Assembly (NCBI GenBank): GCA_001464165.1
Contig: LNEX01000221.1
Coordinates: 1-19,110 of the forward strand
Length of the DNA stretch: 19,110 nt
Source: a bacterium Ga0077546
GTDB lineage: Bacteria > Cyanobacteriota > Vampirovibrionia > Obscuribacterales > Obscuribacteraceae
Reading direction: 5' to 3'
This document shows positions 1 to 17,566 of this stretch, piece after piece. The translations under genes and the position numbers were made by a program. The notes beneath the pieces were generated by a model. The model worked only from the letters and a program-made list of their open reading frames with translations. It had not been told where the DNA came from and did no database searches. Each line of letters starts with the position of its first letter. Position 1 is the first letter of the stretch.

Positions 1-2213
1 AAGCCCGCTCGTACTTTCTGCATCTCTTCATAAGTAAGATTTGAGTCGGCTAGTTGCCCATCGTCCCAACGATTCTGAAAAACTTTATCAAGAGCAGTTT
101 CTACCTCTTCGTTTGTTGGATTTTGCATGCTGTGTGTTACGGCCTCTGAGACATCGGCCAACATTACGATTGCTGTTTCTTTGGTATCTGGCTTTGGTCC
201 TGGGTAGCGATAGAATTCGGCGTCAACTTTGTCAGCGCCATCTCGCAAACAAGCCTTATGGTAAAAATAGGCCATTAGTGTTGTGCCTTGGTGCATTGGT
301 ATAAAGTCTTGAATGGCTTTGGGTAATGCATATTTTTGCGCCAGAGCAATGCCGTCAGTGACGTGGGCTAAAACTCGTGCACGGCTTTCTTCTGGTGTCA
401 TTGAATCATGGGGATTGGCGGCGCCTAACTGATTCTCAATGAAAAACTTGGGGCGTACCATCTTGCCGATATCGTGATACAGAGCCCCTGCTCTTACCAT
501 GTTAGGGTCAGCTGAAATTGCTTTGGCACCAGCCTCGGCGAGGTTTGCTACTGCCAGACTGTGTTGATATGTGCCTGGTGCGTTTTCTTCTAAACGGCGC
601 AAGAGAGGCTGATTAGCGTCGGTCAATTCGGCGAGCCTATAGGGTGTAATTAAACCAAAAATATTTTCTAAGTAAGGGAGGCTGCCAATCGCTAATATTG
701 ATGACGAGATGCCACCAAGGAAGTCTATTCCGGCTTGGCGGCCCAGCATTGACCATGAGGTGATAGACATATTGAAGGCACTAACAGTTAAGTCTCCGGC
801 TACTTGGCCGGCTGCAACCGCCAGTCCGGTGCTGATTACGGCATTTCGTTGCCTTGAATAAGTCCAGATGGCTGCTGCTGAAGCAAGGCAATGGGCGAAA
901 ATATTACGAAGATCAACCAGGCGATCAACAGCGATTAGCATAATCATAGGAACAGTCCATACGATCGCCACACGGGGTCCAAAGAAGATAGTTAGAATCA
1001 GTGCTGCTGCCGGAATTGGAACAAATTGTGGATAGGTTTTTCCAATAATTGAAGCCATGGCACACGCTACCACTGCTACGGTAAACATCAAACCAACTGA
1101 ACTAATCGAGAAAAAGTGTTCTGGCTCATAGGTGTAGAGGAATAGTGCCACTAGTGTTAGAGCGGCAATTAGCGATATGCCAATGCTGAAGATGAAGGGC
1201 CAGCGATTCACATGGGTGATACCAAGAGCCTGGAGAATGTCTAATTTGTCGCTCGTGATCATGGCGCCACGGGGCACTAGAAGTTCACCTTCTATAACGT
1301 TGCGCATTACTGGTTTTATTGATTTGACAACTTCTTCGGCTCTGCCTTGGGTTGATTTGTGGTCAATCACAAGATTCGGCTCTAAGTTTCTTGAAAGAAT
1401 CGATGCTGAGACATTCTTTAGCGCCGAGGGCATGGAGTCTGGTAGAAATTCCTCTGCCATGTCAACCCAGGCTCTTTTGTCTGAGACAGGAAAGCGCTTG
1501 AATTTGCTGGTCAAGCGCTGGGCGCTGGTCATAATCGCTTTTTCATAAGCGGGAAAGTCACCAGGTTGCACTGATAAGGCCGCCAGTAGTTCGGCTCTGT
1601 CTAGGTTCGGAGTGTCTCGACGTAGAGTGGCAATAACAGCTCTGCGCGCCACTAAATCTGAGCGGAGCGGGGCAAGTGCCTCTACTTGACCAGCGAAAGT
1701 TTGATCAGTACTTAAGAGCAGGTCCAGGATTATTGCGGCGTTAGGGCCCACGTTTGGGCGTTCCGCTGTTGAGGTGACCTTTTTGTTGTTGCGTTTATTG
1801 TTTTTTGACTTTGTTATTAAGGCTGGTCCTATGGGAATTAGTCCTGCCGCTTGGTATTGAGCAATACGAGCGAGGGTTGTTTTGACCGCTTCAATAGATG
1901 CTTGATCTTGGTTAAGATCGACTTGAAAGACGGGGTATACAGTTTGCTTGGCAATAGCTATAGCCTTTTCTGTTTCACTACGATCGACCACAGATATGGC
2001 TTCTGGGGCATAGAGATCGCGGTCCGCAACATCGGTTACTTGCAAACCAGGGCTAAACATATGTACCGATGTTAGGGCTAAAAAGAGACTAGCAAAGCCC
2101 AGAATCCCAACTGTTAGCCAGCCGACGAAGGCCTTGCTGCTGGGGAAAACATCATGTTGACCAACTTCGAGCTTGGCAGTATCTGTCAAGCTATGCGCTT
2201 TAGTCTCATTCAC
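1..2213 (-). CDS. 7TM-HD family membrane phosphodiesterase (PgpH-like), 3' end cut off
   Basis: This is the first 737 codons of a large membrane protein that runs out of the window at its C-terminus. Reading from the start there is one membrane segment (about residues 28-52), a long extracytoplasmic domain of the 7TM-HD type ending in VPRGAMITSD near residue 314, a block of membrane helices (about 335-530), and a cytoplasmic HD domain. HD-domain motifs seen are YQHS (His551), YHDIGK (His580, Asp581), AHVTDG (His617), MHQGT (His641, Gln642) and LADVSEA (Asp687). Characterised relatives hydrolyse cyclic di-AMP. The start is GTG at 2213; an in-frame TGA lies a few codons upstream and no ATG precedes the first membrane helix. 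It is divergent from galE. The second His of the usual HHG motif is Gln here. Family assignment is firm; the substrate is inferred. Confidence 0.9.
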   Translation of the reverse strand, partial: MNETKAHSLTDTAKLEVGQHDVFPSSKAFVGWLTVGILGFASLFLALTSVHMFSPGLQVTDVADRDLYAPEAISVVDRSETEKAIAIAKQTVYPVFQVDLNQDQASIEAVKTTLARIAQYQAAGLIPIGPALITKSKNNKRNNKKVTSTAERPNVGPNAAIILDLLLSTDQTFAGQVEALAPLRSDLVARRAVIATLRRDTPNLDRAELLAALSVQPGDFPAYEKAIMTSAQRLTSKFKRFPVSDKRAWVDMAEEFLPDSMPSALKNVSASILSRNLEPNLVIDHKSTQGRAEEVVKSIKPVMRNVIEGELLVPRGAMITSDKLDILQALGITHVNRWPFIFSIGISLIAALTLVALFLYTYEPEHFFSISSVGLMFTVAVVACAMASIIGKTYPQFVPIPAAALILTIFFGPRVAIVWTVPMIMLIAVDRLVDLRNIFAHCLASAAAIWTYSRQRNAVISTGLAVAAGQVAGDLTVSAFNMSITSWSMLGRQAGIDFLGGISSSILAIGSLPYLENIFGLITPYRLAELTDANQPLLRRLEENAPGTYQHSLAVANLAEAGAKAISADPNMVRAGALYHDIGKMVRPKFFIENQLGAANPHDSMTPEESRARVLAHVTDGIALAQKYALPKAIQDFIPMHQGTTLMAYFYHKACLRDGADKVDAEFYRYPGPKPDTKETAIVMLADVSEAVTHSMQNPTNEEVETALDKVFQNRWDDGQLADSNLTYEEMQKVRAG

Positions 2214-8030: not shown

Positions 8031-8120
8031 GGAGAGGTGGCTGAGTGGTCGAAAGCACCTTCCTGCTAAGAAGACGTACGGGGTTAACCTGTACCGAGGG
8101 TTCGAATCCCTCCCTCTCCG
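8031..8120 (+). tRNA. tRNA-Ser (anticodon GCU)
   Basis: A 90-base class II tRNA. The seven-base acceptor stem GGAGAGG pairs with CCTCTCC (8113-8119), with G8120 as discriminator. The D arm includes GGCTGAGTGGTCGAAAGC. The anticodon loop CTGCTAA carries GCT at 8065-8067, reading AGC/AGU serine codons. The long variable arm typical of tRNA-Ser forms a stem of about seven pairs around GTTAA. The T arm is GAGGG-TTCGAAT-CCCTC. The top of the anticodon stem has a C-A mismatch. CCA is not encoded and must be added after transcription. An intrinsic terminator follows. Confidence 0.97.
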
Positions 8121-9215: not shown

Positions 9216-10004
9216 CTAATTCTGCTCTGGCTCTTGGCCAATTGTCAGCATCTCACCGTGTGATGGAATTTCTGCTTCAATATCAAACCTTGCCTTTAGC
9301 TCGCTTTTTAGTTCGTGCAGCTGATGGTTTTCGCCATGGGTCAAGATAATTCTGGCGCCGCTTTTGGCTATGGGCTCTACCCAATGGAGAAGATCGCTTT
9401 GACCGGCGTGAGCGCTAAAGCCTTGAATGTTAGCTATTTTGGCCCTAACGTTGATTGTCTCACCGAAAATCTTAATGGGTTTAGCTTCTAAAAGGCGCCT
9501 GCCCATTGAGTCTTTAGCCTGAAAACCGACAATTAGAACTAGTGTTTCAGCAATGCCTAAGTTATGGCGAAAATGATGCAAAATCCGGCCAGCGTCGCAC
9601 ATGCCGGACCCAGCAAGAATGAGACAGGGACCACTGATCGCATTCAATGCCTGCGATTCTTCAGCTGTTGCACAATATTTTAGAGTTGGTAGTTGTTGAT
9701 GCAGCTGTCCTTCTCTAAACAGGTCTTTAGCCTCATCATCCATCATATCTAGATGGTCGCTGTAAATGTCAGTGGCCGCCGCTGCCATGGGGCTATCCAA
9801 ATAGATAGGAAAGGGCTCTACTGCTCCCGAGTGAAACATTTGGGCAAGATGGTAGAGCAGTTGCTGCGTGCGGCCCACAGCAAAGGTTGGAATTAGTATC
9901 TTGCCTCTTTTTGCTACGGTCTCTTTAATTAAGTCGATCATGAGCTGCACTGATTCTTCATAGGGTCGATGCTCGCGGCCACCATAGGTCGACTCAAGAA
10001 ACAC
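9216..10004 (-). CDS. metallo-beta-lactamase/beta-CASP RNase-like protein, C-terminal part of a split gene
   Basis: This 262-residue frame holds the beta-CASP and RNA-specificity part of a COG1236-type (YSH1/CPSF73-like) metallo-hydrolase. It begins with FLESTYGGREH, whose Glu is beta-CASP motif A. It continues with PTFAVGRTQQLLY, GSGMCDAGRI and QGFSAHAGQSD (motif B His), and ends with ILTHGE (motif C His). It lacks the Asp and HxHxDH metal motifs, which are in the frame just upstream. The start is GTG at 10004, sharing its first base with the upstream TAG stop; GGAG lies eight bases before it, so re-initiation is possible. Alternatively the gene is broken by a small deletion or an assembly error. 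The N- and C-terminal frames together give 453 residues, a little under the usual family length. Confidence 0.82.
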   Translation of the reverse strand: MFLESTYGGREHRPYEESVQLMIDLIKETVAKRGKILIPTFAVGRTQQLLYHLAQMFHSGAVEPFPIYLDSPMAAAATDIYSDHLDMMDDEAKDLFREGQLHQQLPTLKYCATAEESQALNAISGPCLILAGSGMCDAGRILHHFRHNLGIAETLVLIVGFQAKDSMGRRLLEAKPIKIFGETINVRAKIANIQGFSAHAGQSDLLHWVEPIAKSGARIILTHGENHQLHELKSELKARFDIEAEIPSHGEMLTIGQEPEQN

Positions 10005-10579
10005 TAAATTGGCTCCAAGTCACCAGAAAAAATTAGCCTGAGTTGTTCGCTCTTGCTTTTTTGGGTCATGATTACGCTTGAAGAGCCGATAATATGACCC
10101 GCTTCAACTAGCCTAATGGTGATTTCATCGGCGATTTTTGTTTCGCTGTTGTAAGGCAAAGGGTAAAACAGAGAGAAGACTCGCTCGGCGTCTTTCATGG
10201 CAAATAGCGGCTTTATTGTTGGAAGGCCAGCTTTAATTCTTTTGCGATTTTCACGGTTAGTGTCGTCTACTTGAATTTTTGCGGCATCGCTCAAAATTAG
10301 ACGGGCAATATCTAGTGTGCCAGAGGTACCGTAAATTGGGCCTCTAAAGCCCGCTTTTGTAAGAAGAGGGAGTCGGCCGCAGTGATCTAAATGACCGTGG
10401 GTTAAAACCACAGCTTCAACTTTTTCGGCCACGATCGACTTAGGAATGAAGTTGAATTTGTCGAGACGTTTTGAGCCTTGAAACAATCCACAGTCGACTA
10501 GAAGTCTGGCTTTTTTTGTTTCAATTAGGTAACAAGAACCAGTGACAGCATTGGCTGCACCGTGCAGGGTAATGAACAC
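10004..10579 (-). CDS. metallo-beta-lactamase/beta-CASP RNase-like protein, N-terminal part of a split gene
   Basis: This 191-residue frame holds the N-terminal metallo-beta-lactamase portion of a COG1236-type hydrolase, a family of RNA-processing nucleases. Visible motifs are LLVDCGLFQG, the zinc motif THGHLDHCG (HxHxDH), VEAGHIIGSSSV (motif 3 His) and IFSGDL (motif 4 Asp). Right after SGDL the frame reads EPI and stops. In intact relatives about 15 residues link SGDLG to the ADxxLxESTYG strand. Here the link is missing and the next strand (ANLVFLESTYG) is in another frame. The start is GTG at 10579, six bases after the stop of the 591-residue protein gene, so the two are probably one operon. 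By itself this half lacks the last metal ligand and the beta-CASP domain. Confidence 0.82.
   Translation of the reverse strand: MFITLHGAANAVTGSCYLIETKKARLLVDCGLFQGSKRLDKFNFIPKSIVAEKVEAVVLTHGHLDHCGRLPLLTKAGFRGPIYGTSGTLDIARLILSDAAKIQVDDTNRENRKRIKAGLPTIKPLFAMKDAERVFSLFYPLPYNSETKIADEITIRLVEAGHIIGSSSVIMTQKSKSEQLRLIFSGDLEPI
10013..10016 (-). promoter_or_regulatory. ribosome-binding-like GGAG before the internal GTG of the split beta-CASP gene
   Basis: On the minus strand GGAG is followed after eight bases by the GTG that opens the C-terminal frame. The stop and start overlap as TAGTG. This is the arrangement expected for termination-reinitiation, so both halves could be made from one message. Confidence 0.4.
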
Positions 10580-13437: not shown

Positions 13438-14478
13438 ATGCCAGCCAAACCTTTTGAAGAAAAGCCTGAAGAAAAGCCACATAAAAAGACCGGTGGTCAA
13501 GCGTTTGGCTTTAGAAAATCACAGCCAAAGCTCAAGGTTTCTGAAACAGTAGAAGAGAAGTTAGCGCGTCTTGAGCATGAAGTTTCTGGAAAAGCCAAAG
13601 TTACTGATTCGTCTGGTTCAAGTCTGCCATCGCCAGTAGTGCCGAAAAAAACTAAGCCTGAGAATATTAACTCTTCAACTGCGTTAGTCGCAGCCAGTCA
13701 ACTGAGCTTCATGCATAATCCCCGTTGGAATATGTCTGTCTTTTGGCTGCTAGTGGTCTTCAGTGTGTTTTTGAGTAATGTTCCGGGCGTTCATTTTTTG
13801 CTGACACCAGTTAGTCAATTTGTAACCATGGTGCATGAAATGGGGCACGCCATTGTTACTATTCTCACTGGTGGTCATGTTGATTTCATGACCGTGGTGA
13901 GCGATGGGCAGGGGCATGCAGGCCTGACTGGCAGTCGCGGTGGTTTGGCTTTTCTCTCTGCACAGGCTGGTTATATTGGCACCACTTTGTTTGGTTGCCT
14001 TTTGATATACCTGGGTCAGTACCCACGATATTCGAAATTGATATTGTCTGGTTTAGGCGTTGCTATGATTGTCGCCTCATTGATATTTATGACCCCAGCT
14101 TTATTCGATCCTATGCGGTTTTTACAAGGTCTAGGAAGCTTGATTTGGGGCCTAGGAATGGGTGCATTCTGCGTTTATCTAGGCAAGAAATTGCAAGCTG
14201 CTTGGGCTAATTTGGTAGTGCTTTTCTTAGCTGTGCAAACAGCTCTTAGCTCGCTAGCTCTAACGTGGTCATTGTTCCCGCATTCACTGGGATTGGCTGG
14301 TGGGGGGTATAGTGACGCCACACTAATGGCTAAAATGATCCCTTTTACACTCCCTGTATTTTGGGTTTTAATCTGGATTGCAATTTCTGTGCTAATGCTA
14401 TTCTTTACTCTCAAACATACCTACGGTGCTGCTTTTATGAAAAAGGGCAGCGCCATGAAACAGATTCCAAAACAATAG
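13438..14478 (+). CDS. M50B-like membrane zinc metalloprotease family protein
   Basis: A 346-residue protein with a charged, probably cytosolic N-terminal region of about 95 residues rich in Lys, Glu and Pro. A membrane helix follows (about 99-118), then the zinc motif HEMGH at 133-137 in MVHEMGHAIVTILTGG, then several more helices. This matches the peptidase M50B-like family, related to site-2 proteases. The segment GGGYSDATLMAKM sits where relatives have the NDA-type Asp, a candidate third zinc ligand. Substrate and proteolytic activity are unknown; many family members are uncharacterised. The N-terminal extension is unusual and is predicted to be disordered. The ribosome-binding site is weak. 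The gene ends 17 bases before the formiminotransferase start and is probably co-transcribed with it. Confidence 0.82.
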   Translation: MPAKPFEEKPEEKPHKKTGGQAFGFRKSQPKLKVSETVEEKLARLEHEVSGKAKVTDSSGSSLPSPVVPKKTKPENINSSTALVAASQLSFMHNPRWNMSVFWLLVVFSVFLSNVPGVHFLLTPVSQFVTMVHEMGHAIVTILTGGHVDFMTVVSDGQGHAGLTGSRGGLAFLSAQAGYIGTTLFGCLLIYLGQYPRYSKLILSGLGVAMIVASLIFMTPALFDPMRFLQGLGSLIWGLGMGAFCVYLGKKLQAAWANLVVLFLAVQTALSSLALTWSLFPHSLGLAGGGYSDATLMAKMIPFTLPVFWVLIWIAISVLMLFFTLKHTYGAAFMKKGSAMKQIPKQ

Positions 14479-14495: not shown

Positions 14496-16178
14496 ATGCA
14501 GCTTGTAGAATGTGTGCCCAACTTTTCTGAAGGCCGAAATGAAAAAGTAATAGATGCGATTGCCGATGCTATTCGCGGCGTAAGTGGAGTCAGTCTGCTT
14601 GATGTTGACCCAGGTTATAGTACCAATCGCACTGTGGTTACTTTCGTTGGTCAGCCAGAGCAGGTGGTTGAAGCAGCATATCAAGCCATTTCTAAGGCCT
14701 CGCAACTAATTGATATGCGCAAGCACCAAGGTGAGCATCCTCGCATGGGTGCTACAGATGTTTGCCCGTTTGTACCAGTCAGCGGTATCACCATGGAGCA
14801 ATGTGTAGAGTTAGCCAATACTTTAGGCGAGCGGGTCGGTCGTGATCTTGGCATTCCTATTTATTTGTATGGCGAGGCGGCTAAGAAGGCCGAGCGGCGC
14901 AGTCTAGCTGACATACGGCAAGGCGAATACGAAGCTCTTAACGAGAAAATGAAAGATAGTGGTTTCAAACCCGATTTTGGCCCGTCAGCTTTCAATGCTG
15001 CCAGCGGTGCCACCGTCATTGGTGCTAGGCAATTTCTCATTGCCTACAATGTCAATCTTAATACCCGCTCAAAAAAACTAGCTAACGAAATAGCCTTCAA
15101 TATAAGAGAAGCTGGTCGGGCTAAGCGCAATGGCAAAGGCGAAATAGAGAAAGATGCGTCGGGCAATACTGTTAAAGTTCCAGGCACCTTGAAAGAAGTA
15201 CGAGCAGTTGGCTGGTATGTAGACGAGTATCAGCGGGCCCAAGTCTCAATAAATTTGACTAATTTTGAAATTACTTCTTTGCATCAGGCCTTTGATGAAG
15301 TAGTTCGCCAGGCTGAACTATTGGGCCTGCGAGTAACCGGTAGCGAGATTGTCGGCCTGGTTCCTCTGGCGCCGATGCTTGAGGCGGGGCGGCACTACCT
15401 ACGCAAACAAGGTCGATCAACTGGTATTAGTGAAGCCGAAATTGTTGAGTGTGCGGTTCAGTCTTTGGGGCTGGCTGAACTTTCTCCATTTGTGGCTAAA
15501 GAGAAAATTATTGAGTATCGCGTTGCCCCAGAAGGCAAATTTTTGCGCAATATGAGCTTGTCTGCCTTTGTAGATGAGCTGGCCAGTGAGTCTCCGGCAC
15601 CTGGTGGTGGTAGCGTTGCAGCCCTATGTGGTTCACTATCGGCGGCTTTAAGTGCCATGGTGGCCAACCTCACTTTTGAGAAGAAAGGTTTTGAAGAGAA
15701 GAAGGCCATGATGGAAGGTGTGGGTCGAGATGCTCAACGCCTCAAGCAATGGCTGCTACAAACTGTTGATGACGACATGCTGGCTTTTAATCGCATTCTT
15801 GATGCTCGGCGCATGGCCAAAGGTAGCGAGAGCGAAAAAGCTCTGCGCGATGCTGCCATTTTAGAGGCAAGTAAAGCGGCAACTTTAACCCCGCTGTCAG
15901 TATTGCAGGGTGGGCCAGTATTGCTTGAACTGGCCGCTCGTGTAGTTGAGCATGGCAATCCCAGCTCTTTGTCTGATGGTGCAGTGGCTGCTCTTGTTGC
16001 TGCCGCAGCTGCGGAGGGTGCCTACTATAACGTTTTGATTAATCTGCGGGATTTTGGTCAATCAACTGCTGAGCAAGAATTTGTCAGCGATACTCGCGGC
16101 CAGGCTGACAAATTGATCTCTGTCGTGCGCAGTCGCTCAGAAGAAATCAAGCAATTGGCAATGGCGGCACTAAGTTAA
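14496..16178 (+). CDS. ftcD: bifunctional glutamate formiminotransferase / formimidoyltetrahydrofolate cyclodeaminase
   Basis: A 560-residue fusion close in size and order to animal FTCD (about 540). The N-terminal part (1 to about 330) moves the formimino group from formiminoglutamate to tetrahydrofolate, releasing glutamate. Motifs are VECVPNFSEGRN at the start and GEHPRMGATDVCPFVP, whose His81 matches the catalytic His82 of the animal enzyme. The C-terminal part (about 353-560) is the cyclodeaminase, opening with SLSAFVDELAS and the glycine-rich APGGGSVAALCG, and yields methenyl-THF and ammonia. In many bacteria these are separate proteins. A short insert (KRNGKGEIEKDASGNTVKVP, about 212-231) lies in the transferase half. 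No other histidine-degradation gene is visible here, so the source of formiminoglutamate is open. Confidence 0.95.
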   Translation: MQLVECVPNFSEGRNEKVIDAIADAIRGVSGVSLLDVDPGYSTNRTVVTFVGQPEQVVEAAYQAISKASQLIDMRKHQGEHPRMGATDVCPFVPVSGITMEQCVELANTLGERVGRDLGIPIYLYGEAAKKAERRSLADIRQGEYEALNEKMKDSGFKPDFGPSAFNAASGATVIGARQFLIAYNVNLNTRSKKLANEIAFNIREAGRAKRNGKGEIEKDASGNTVKVPGTLKEVRAVGWYVDEYQRAQVSINLTNFEITSLHQAFDEVVRQAELLGLRVTGSEIVGLVPLAPMLEAGRHYLRKQGRSTGISEAEIVECAVQSLGLAELSPFVAKEKIIEYRVAPEGKFLRNMSLSAFVDELASESPAPGGGSVAALCGSLSAALSAMVANLTFEKKGFEEKKAMMEGVGRDAQRLKQWLLQTVDDDMLAFNRILDARRMAKGSESEKALRDAAILEASKAATLTPLSVLQGGPVLLELAARVVEHGNPSSLSDGAVAALVAAAAAEGAYYNVLINLRDFGQSTAEQEFVSDTRGQADKLISVVRSRSEEIKQLAMAALS

Positions 16179-16224: not shown

Positions 16225-16261
16225 TACCTTACTACCCGATAGGGAGCTGAGAGGGAGCATC

Positions 16262-17566
16262 ATGGCAATTGCTACAGATAGCAAAGACAATAAAGGATTC
16301 GGCAGCGCAGTGACGAATGAATGGGAAACCCCGGACTTCATAAATGCCCAGAAACGCCTTGACAAGGTTGCTCAGCATATGAAACTAGACAACAATGTTG
16401 TTGAACCAATGCGTCATCCTAAGCGTTCTTTGTCTGTGGTTGTTCCGGCGCGAATGGATGACGGTTCGGTGCGAACTTTCATGGGCTATCGCGTTCACCA
16501 TGACCTAGCTCTTGGGCCCGGTAAAGGTGGTTTGCGCTATCACTCTGAGGTAACTCTCGGTGAAGTGGCTTCGATGGCCATGCTCATGACTTGGAAATGC
16601 TCACTAATGAATCTGCCATTCGGCGGCGCTCATGGTGGCATAAGGATGGACCCAAACACTCTGTCTAAAGGTGAGCTTGAGCGAATTACCCGACGCTACA
16701 CTTCTGAAATCTTAGAGATGATTGGGCCGACCCAAGACATTGCTGGGCCTGACCTGAATACTGATGAACAGACCATGGCCTGGATCATGGACACTTATTC
16801 AGTCAACAAAGGTTTTACCGTTCCTTCTATTGTTACTGGCAAGCCCCAATATTTGGGTGGCTCACTCGGTGTTTTGCAGTCAACTGGTTATGGCGTGGCT
16901 CTGGCGGCTAGGCGGGCGGCCACCTTTGCCAAGCTCAAAGGTGATGCACCAGCTGTAGTTATTCAAGGCTTGGGTCATGTTGGTTCGTCAGTTGCGCGCA
17001 ATTTGAGCAAGGCCGGGTTCAAAATTGTGGGAGTATCGGACGCCTTTGGTGGTCTATCAAATGCTAAAGGCTTTGATGTCGAAGACCTCATGGCTTTCAT
17101 CGACAAGAATGGCGCCATGTATGAGTATCCTAATGCTGACAAAGTTAGCAATGAAGAGCTACTTGAGCTAGAGTGCGATATTCTGGCACCGTGCGCAGTG
17201 TCAAGTCAGATTCACGCCGGCAATGCTGATCGTCTCAAGTGTAAAGTTGTAGTGGAAGGTGCTAATTCGCCAACCACGCCAAATGCCGATGATGTCCTTG
17301 ATGGTAAGGGCGTAATTGTCATGCCAGATATCCTCGCAAATGCCGCCGGAGTGACTGTTGGTTACTTTGAATGGGTGCAAGGTTTGATGCGCTTGCTTTG
17401 GACAGAAGAAGAAGTCTACCAGCGCCTAGAAGGCCTGGTTAACAACGTTTGTACCAAAGTATTTGATGTTGCCGATGAGAAGAAATTGACTTTGCGCATG
17501 GCAGCCATGAGTATTGCCGTTGAGCGAATTGTTGAAGCTCGACGTCTCCGTGGACTTTATCCATAA
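16262..17566 (+). CDS. Glu/Leu/Phe/Val dehydrogenase homologue with altered catalytic site
   Basis: A 434-residue protein with full glutamate-dehydrogenase layout: N-terminal substrate domain and C-terminal NAD(P) Rossmann domain (QGLGHVGSS near 239). Compared by motif with clostridial GDH, the substrate lysines Lys88 (GPGKGGLRYH) and Lys112 (MTWKCSL) and the catalytic Asp164 (AGPDLNTDE) are kept. The catalytic lysine of the signature LPxGGxKGG is His124 (LPFGGAHGG, codon CAT). The serine that contacts the glutamate side chain (VSYFEW in relatives) is Gly367 (VGYFEW). In active relatives the reaction is oxidative deamination of an amino acid to a 2-oxo acid. Here the activity may be lost or changed. 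A good ribosome-binding site (GGGAG, 16253-16257) precedes ATG. The gene follows ftcD, whose product releases glutamate, and ends two bases from a convergent gene. Confidence 0.9.
   Translation: MAIATDSKDNKGFGSAVTNEWETPDFINAQKRLDKVAQHMKLDNNVVEPMRHPKRSLSVVVPARMDDGSVRTFMGYRVHHDLALGPGKGGLRYHSEVTLGEVASMAMLMTWKCSLMNLPFGGAHGGIRMDPNTLSKGELERITRRYTSEILEMIGPTQDIAGPDLNTDEQTMAWIMDTYSVNKGFTVPSIVTGKPQYLGGSLGVLQSTGYGVALAARRAATFAKLKGDAPAVVIQGLGHVGSSVARNLSKAGFKIVGVSDAFGGLSNAKGFDVEDLMAFIDKNGAMYEYPNADKVSNEELLELECDILAPCAVSSQIHAGNADRLKCKVVVEGANSPTTPNADDVLDGKGVIVMPDILANAAGVTVGYFEWVQGLMRLLWTEEEVYQRLEGLVNNVCTKVFDVADEKKLTLRMAAMSIAVERIVEARRLRGLYP

Follow-up and report, generated by a model that had tools for sequence, protein, structure and literature searches.

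A lysine-less, probably inactive glutamate dehydrogenase paralogue conserved beside formiminotransferase-cyclodeaminase in Obscuribacterales

The window, as we call the whole analysed stretch of 19,110 nucleotides, encodes a paralogue of glutamate dehydrogenase (GDH) in which histidine takes the place of the catalytic lysine. The lysine-less clade to which it belongs, here named H-type, is real and general, and it is kept under purifying selection similar to that acting on canonical GDH. The host group consists of non-photosynthetic relatives of cyanobacteria. What we regard as new is a GDH paralogue, probably inactive, that has acquired another genomic partner, formiminotransferase-cyclodeaminase (FTCD), and has an active-site pattern of its own. 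Among the papers listed from the open-licence literature searched, a scope outside which subscription papers mostly lie, none described the H-type clade.

Gene and predicted protein

The gene and the codons discussed below are as follows.

16262..17566, + strand: H-type (lysine-less) GDH paralogue, 434 aa, ATG start, GAGGGAG at 16251..16257
16523..16525, + strand: codon 88, Lys, kept in the window gene
16595..16597, + strand: codon 112, Lys, kept
16631..16633, + strand: codon 124, CAT, His within LPFGGAHGG, replaces the catalytic Lys
16745..16747, + strand: codon 162, Gly, replaces Ala
16751..16753, + strand: codon 164, catalytic Asp, kept
16871..16873, + strand: codon 204, Val; Arg in three canonical GDH sets
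16976..16978, + strand: codon 239, CAT, His, replaces Asn of the GxGNxG dinucleotide loop
17345..17347, + strand: codon 362, Ala, replaces Gly
17360..17362, + strand: codon 367, GGT, Gly in VGYFEW, replaces the substrate-contacting Ser

Pfam matches above cut-off (PF02812 and PF00208) extend across both GDH domains of this reading frame, which thus has the two-domain ELFV fold. In HMMER alignments, the protein runs gapless through the region of residue 124 against both T. maritima 1b26 and T. thermophilus 3aoe_A, and since these are solved GDHs, the register of residue 124 is secure. A preliminary description of this DNA had reported His124 (CAT) instead of the catalytic lysine, Gly367 instead of the substrate serine, and K88, K112 and D164 present in a secure alignment; the codons and the gapless alignments bear this out in full. 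Beyond that description, R204, N239, A162 and G362 were found to be changed as well, and the adjacency to FTCD and the canonical GDH of relatives came to light.

We take residues 124, 162 and 367 to be the counterparts of Lys125, Ala163 (side-chain pocket) and Ser380 of clostridial GDH. Position 204 presumably equals bovine Arg211 and 239 the Asn of the dinucleotide loop, and several such positions presumably line the substrate or cofactor sites. The canonical hexameric NAD(P) GDH, represented by T. maritima 1b26 and the order's own copies, shares with the H-type its fold, its length, the C-terminus RGLYP, K112, D164 and the loop glycines, and the window protein has 59% identity with the canonical GDH of G001, a close genome. 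However, canonical GDH has Lys124, Ser367, Arg204, Asn239, Ala162 and Gly362, whereas the H-type replaces all six and adjoins FTCD.

The NCBIfam equivalog cut-off for a GDH type was not reached (best NF041398, 459 bits vs. a cut-off of 620), a shortfall that constitutes weak evidence because those models serve particular lineages. With 29 H-type sequences as input, AlphaFold2 gave a poor model (mean pLDDT 64.4), and one built from 100 mixed sequences reached a mean pLDDT of 88.0 with the GDH fold intact.

Distribution, phylogeny and selection

Among 53 Obscuribacterales genomes, 47 carry the H- or Q-type gene, with Gln in G040 and G041. It was not found in G005, G011, G017, G034, G045 and G048 within this set, whose assemblies may be incomplete; in G045 it may simply be unassembled, since the FTCD gene of this genome is cut. 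A class-wide search covered 194 genomes from a larger group. Outside Obscuribacterales, 26 of them matched at E 1e-100 or better, and Lys124 was present in 21 of the 21 that were read (unread: G064, G083, G088, G097 and G099).

A K124 GDH accompanies the H-type in 46 of its 47 genomes. The close canonical copy, whose identity with the window protein is 54-59%, occurs in 44 of the 47 (as fragments only in G019, G039 and G047). For the other three H-type genomes, G010, G023 and G028, no such copy was found. Conversely, in G005, G011 and G017 the canonical copy is present and no H-type was detected. In G010, the Pfam search gives a single PF00208 match, the H-type copy itself (L159, G010:C9:820755-822017), in which K88 is also lost, and no canonical GDH was found in this genome. 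The H-type thus stands alone there and a partner GDH is not obligatory. Many Obscuribacterales genomes furthermore hold a third GDH (several loci: L095, L096, L093 and L185-L204), which shares about 40-46% identity with the window protein; the copies of it that were read have both lysine and serine.

The tree comprises 152 rows and was calculated with a quick method that provides SH-aLRT support only. All 46 H-type rows (the window and 45 genomes; the partial copies of G004 and G028 were left out here and in the residue comparison) fall on one side of a branch with support 100. Their sister is the canonical GDH of Obscuribacterales (46 rows, support 98). The two clades united (support 96) nest in turn with 15 of the 19 canonical rows that stem from the rest of the class (support 97). 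Since the H-type forms one clade that is sister to the order's canonical GDH, the simplest history would be a duplication at or near the base of Obscuribacterales, followed by loss of the lysine. Two checks proposed in the preliminary description thereby came out positive: the relatives have His (or Gln/Asn) and form a single clade, and a second, canonical GDH is present in nearly all of their genomes.

The median dN/dS was 0.025 for the H-type vs. 0.026 for the canonical copy, measurable for both copies in 14 of 20 genome pairs; these ratios are approximate, because dS exceeds 1 in many pairs and the 14 pairs share genomes and hence are non-independent. Values near 0.02 indicate strong selection and exclude decay, and the order-wide search revealed no internal stop in any H-type match. 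At the protein level the H-type evolves faster, with a mean identity of 0.64 vs. 0.81 among canonical copies (40 genomes). The distance matrices of both copies correlate (r 0.85), which may merely mirror the species tree.

Active-site pattern of the clade

In the best 120 matches to the window protein, residue 124 is His in 106, Gln in 12, Asn in one and Lys in one. Gly367 and D164 are present in all 120 and K112 in 119, while Arg204 occurs in none. The preliminary description would have been contradicted by Lys in close relatives, yet the sole Lys row, P0041, turned out to be a chimera: its residues 1-175 (a cut point chosen by us) match a Paraburkholderia GDH at 72.5% identity, and the remainder matches an H-type row at 98.8%. 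In a baseline of GDH loci from many phyla (80 listed, a sample of those listed and no census; the misaligned row L037 was left out), Lys occupies position 124 in every readable row but one, the exception among the listed loci being a Chloroflexi copy with Ala (L072:4007).

To delimit the pattern, the 46 H-type rows were compared with canonical sets of 46, 19 and 21 rows, and a site was called changed if one residue occurs in at least 85% of each of the three canonical sets and a different one in most H-type rows. Eleven sites are changed by this definition: 105, 124, 161, 162, 190, 204, 210, 239, 336, 362 and 367. Residue 367 is Gly in 44 H-type rows, Ala in one and Ser in one. Position 162, Ala in 86/86 canonical rows, is Gly in 41, Thr in three and Ser in two H-type rows, and position 362, Gly in 86/86 canonical rows, is Ala in 31, Ser in 13 and Thr in two. 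Asn239 is found in 86/86 canonical rows vs. 5/46 H-type rows, where Q, H, R, N, T and S occur; this change carries less weight, since a second sample of canonical GDHs lacks Asn239 in 14 of 99 rows. On the other hand, K112, D164, G236, G238 and G241 are kept in 46/46 H-type rows, and K88 is lost in six of them (M, L and A, two each).

Parsimony on the tree requires six changes among K, H, Q and N at site 124, and four if Q is set against the rest. Given such repeated changes, His itself is not indispensable. Together, the changed sites, the kept residues and the variable residue 124 speak against ordinary catalysis and against a catalytic His, and for a ligand site that would have survived. 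A metal site formed by His124, C113 and C311 was also considered and rejected, because Gln and Asn rows with C113 occur; moreover, C113 is present in canonical rows and C311 in some of them.

Genomic context

The two genes preceding the GDH paralogue on its strand are:

13438..14478, + strand: M50B-like membrane peptidase (PF13398), which opens the co-directed run and is separated from FTCD by 17 bases
14496..16178, + strand: FTCD (formiminotransferase-cyclodeaminase; glutamate formimidoyltransferase), with PF07837, PF02971 and PF04961, and TIGR02024 above cut-off

FTCD ends 83 bases upstream of the GDH paralogue, and its start is the first ATG of a frame searched from 14493. Thus the order in the window is M50B-like peptidase, FTCD and GDH paralogue, all on the + strand, followed by a convergent phosphoesterase. 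The scan for promoters and terminators returned fewer sites than were obtained in shuffles.

Elsewhere in the window, three further features were noted:

3..2213, - strand: frame of 737 aa that extends beyond the window; its middle part is hydrophobic and it carries an HDIGK motif, and we take it to resemble a membrane-bound HD-domain phosphohydrolase
8031..8120, + strand: tRNA gene of 90 bases (RF00005, 57 bits)
9216..10579, - strand: beta-CASP/RMMBL and metallo-beta-lactamase matches on successive ORFs in different frames that join at 10004, possibly one frameshifted gene

The arrangement with FTCD recurs across the order. Among 46 H-type loci (46 genomes, excluding the window and G028), 37 have FTCD as the immediate upstream neighbour in the same orientation, its aligned part ending at most 270 bases from the GDH gene; in four of these (G010, G018, G042 and G052) the neighbour is the formiminotransferase part only. 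FTCD is located farther upstream in G033 (4.5 kb, same strand) and, by coordinates, in G004 and G044 (about 2.7 kb), a formiminotransferase-only gene is found on the opposite strand in G008 (partly visible) and G009, and a separate contig carries FTCD in G020, G022 and G032 (the latter with 202 bases of upstream sequence). In G021 it was not found. FTCD was beside the canonical GDH at none of 24 canonical loci whose flank reaches 2 kb or more on one side, and among the listed GDH loci of many lineages it was found in the flank of one of 80. Around 30 H-type loci examined, the neighbourhood is conserved more widely: relatives of FTCD turn up at 27 of them, of M50B at 25, of an IF-2B-family gene at 24 and of one more gene, located downstream, at 22. 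Consequently, adjacency to FTCD could represent an inherited order without a shared task.

Presence and absence point in the same direction, less firmly than gene order does: the H-type tracks FTCD rather than the close canonical GDH. In 53 genomes, both H-type and FTCD occur in 46, neither in four, FTCD alone in two (G045 and G048) and the H-type alone in one (G021), with G030 scored as FTCD-positive from a cut FTCD_C match. This association is significant if kinship is not corrected for (Fisher p 2.5e-4), whereas H-type and close canonical copy show none (44/3/5/1, p 0.39, 53 genomes). On the tree there are four independent H-type/FTCD pairs, of which three agree, none opposes and one is neutral (p 0.25); with this number of independent events, significance is out of reach. 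Urocanase is encoded in 43 of the 53 genomes and its relation to the H-type is weak (p 0.07). Given this frequency, histidine breakdown to N-formiminoglutamate, the pathway feeding FTCD, is likely common in Obscuribacterales.

The residue K88 was also compared with the context. It is lost in six of 13 genomes without an adjacent full-length FTCD vs. none of 31 others (Fisher p 2.4e-4); this table covers 44 of the 53 genomes, i.e. minus six without H-type and minus G028, G030 and G047, and a formiminotransferase-only neighbour was scored as not full-length. However, when genomes are compared in pairs on the tree, a link between K88 and FTCD is not supported.

Comparison with other lysine-less GDHs

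The Ala124 copy of Chloroflexi, the A-type (L072:4007-5260), stands in tandem with a canonical GDH at L072:2669-5260 (G007:C127). Its best 120 matches include 21 without lysine (Ala in 20, Ser in one; P0121-P0141) and 99 with lysine. Like the H-type, the A-type has lost Lys124 and is changed at 239 and 362 in 21/21 rows. Residue 362 went from Gly to Ala or Ser in all 21 and is Gly in 99/99 canonical rows of the same sample, while Asn239 is lost in 21/21 and also in the 14 of 99 canonical rows already mentioned; residue 162 is Gly in ten, Thr in three and Ala in eight. Unlike the H-type, however, it keeps Ser367 (21/21) and Arg204 (20/21). Since the A-type row, one in our tree, stands away from the H-type clade, both losses of the lysine are separate. 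The parallel change at 362 suggests a route that may be common when a GDH leaves catalysis.

Precedents for such proteins exist. T. thermophilus GdhA is described as a dead GDH paralogue with a regulatory task (excerpt of PMC9570180), and for S. aureus YwlG the possibility is discussed that it is a pseudoenzyme with an activating effect on a GDH (excerpt of PMC9522360). The window protein is not especially close to GdhA, as it scores 333 bits to 3aoe_E (GdhA, judging by its 419 aa) vs. 417 bits to 3aoe_A (GdhB). In addition, unlike GdhA, the H-type is linked to FTCD and not to the canonical GDH gene.

Discussion

FTCD converts N-formiminoglutamate and tetrahydrofolate to glutamate, and its second domain yields methenyl-tetrahydrofolate and ammonia. 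Glutamate and ammonia, in turn, are ligands of GDH. In our best explanation, the H-type protein is a GDH paralogue without catalytic activity, whose role would be to bind a glutamate-like ligand in the service of FTCD and/or canonical GDH, and we consider this about equally likely to be right or wrong. Duplication at or near the base of Obscuribacterales would have yielded a paralogue that abandoned glutamate oxidation while retaining the fold and part of the ligand site. Without Lys124, no normal amination or deamination would be expected, and the remaining Lys/Asp site might bind glutamate, 2-oxoglutarate or N-formiminoglutamate, i.e. substrate or product of FTCD. Judging from spacing and conserved order, the H-type gene may be co-transcribed with FTCD, and its product might act as a partner or as a regulator or sensor of the FTCD step. 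An effect on canonical GDH could possibly be exerted as well, via mixed hexamers or competition for ligands. As an outcome, the glutamate and ammonia released by FTCD would be matched to their further use. One counter-point should be stated: the kept K112, D164 and nucleotide-loop glycines would fit an enzyme too.

The most serious of the other explanations, possible but rather doubtful, holds that the protein is a regulatory subunit, which would assemble with the cell's own canonical GDH into mixed hexamers and relay an allosteric signal such as leucine. The T. thermophilus enzyme is such a hexamer of four GdhA and two GdhB, with GdhA inactive and regulatory, and its leucine site comprises R135, D166, a C-terminal Arg and a Tyr (both from the excerpt of PMC9570180). 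The counterparts of these residues are kept in the H-type rows (R145, D177 and R430 in 46/46, Y433 in 44/46; mapped by eye on the 3aoe_A alignment, in which D177 falls at 167 and not at the published 166), yet they do not discriminate, because most canonical rows keep them. A K124 GDH is at hand in all H-type genomes but one, and the Chloroflexi A-type sits in tandem with its canonical GDH. However, the H-type occurs independently of the close canonical copy and each is found without the other; moreover, both genes are not neighbours in Obscuribacterales, and FTCD is absent from the canonical loci with sufficient flank. Less probable than such a subunit, and unlikely in our judgment, is that the GDH was turned into a receptor for N-formimino-L-glutamate. 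With the cationic Lys124 lost and Asp164, K88 and K112 kept, there would be room and counter-charge for the positively charged formimino group on the alpha nitrogen; two carboxylate-binding lysines would be left, and the protein might sense the FTCD substrate or pass it on.

We regard it as quite unlikely that the H-type is an active amino-acid dehydrogenase that either acts on a new substrate or uses His124 as an alternative acid/base group. D164, K112 and the GxGxxG glycines are kept, and the altered pocket (A162G, S367G) could admit a larger substrate. Against this, a catalytic His should not tolerate replacement by Gln or Asn, as happened in 12 and one of the best 120 matches with Gly367 remaining constant, and in four Q-vs.-rest changes on the tree; in addition, cofactor-loop residue 239 varies freely and 6/46 rows lose K88. 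Very unlikely is a moonlighting regulator, for example a protein of GDH fold that binds a transcription factor or glutamate synthase. The solved matches do include the counter-enzyme complex of GDH and glutamate synthase, 7mfm, and therefore GDH hexamers can dock on other proteins. However, no regulator gene was recognised beside the H-type, whose recurrent neighbours are the M50B-like peptidase, the IF-2B-family gene and other clusters. The chances of a sequencing error, an assembly artefact or a decaying gene are practically negligible. Although one row at site 124, P0041, is truly a chimera, 119 of 120 matches and 47 genomes agree, dN/dS is about 0.02 and internal stops are missing. His124 is also shared by near-identical copies in four genomes (G001, G012, G013 and G015, 98% identity over 434 aa), so that it is no sequencing error. 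The preliminary description, which had held both error and decay to be unlikely, was right in this respect.

That description had further left the choice between a new substrate or chemistry and a non-catalytic regulatory subunit. Its non-catalytic half is the better supported, because His yields to Gln or Asn and further positions conserved in active GDHs are changed. A subunit of the canonical GDH is, however, one option among others, since it is FTCD that the gene order tracks, as does the pattern of presence, though less firmly.

In GDH, a textbook enzyme, the catalytic lysine is regarded as invariant, and here a copy is conserved order-wide without it. Where the H-type proteins are named in their source annotations, they are called dehydrogenases, and metabolic models that count their genes as GDH would be corrected. 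If the receptor explanation were true, a protein binding N-formiminoglutamate would couple histidine breakdown and one-carbon supply to the use of glutamate. The H-type together with the separate Chloroflexi set suggests that loss of catalysis might be a repeated and selected outcome in the GDH family, and with a two-gene system at hand, the role of dead GDH copies becomes testable.
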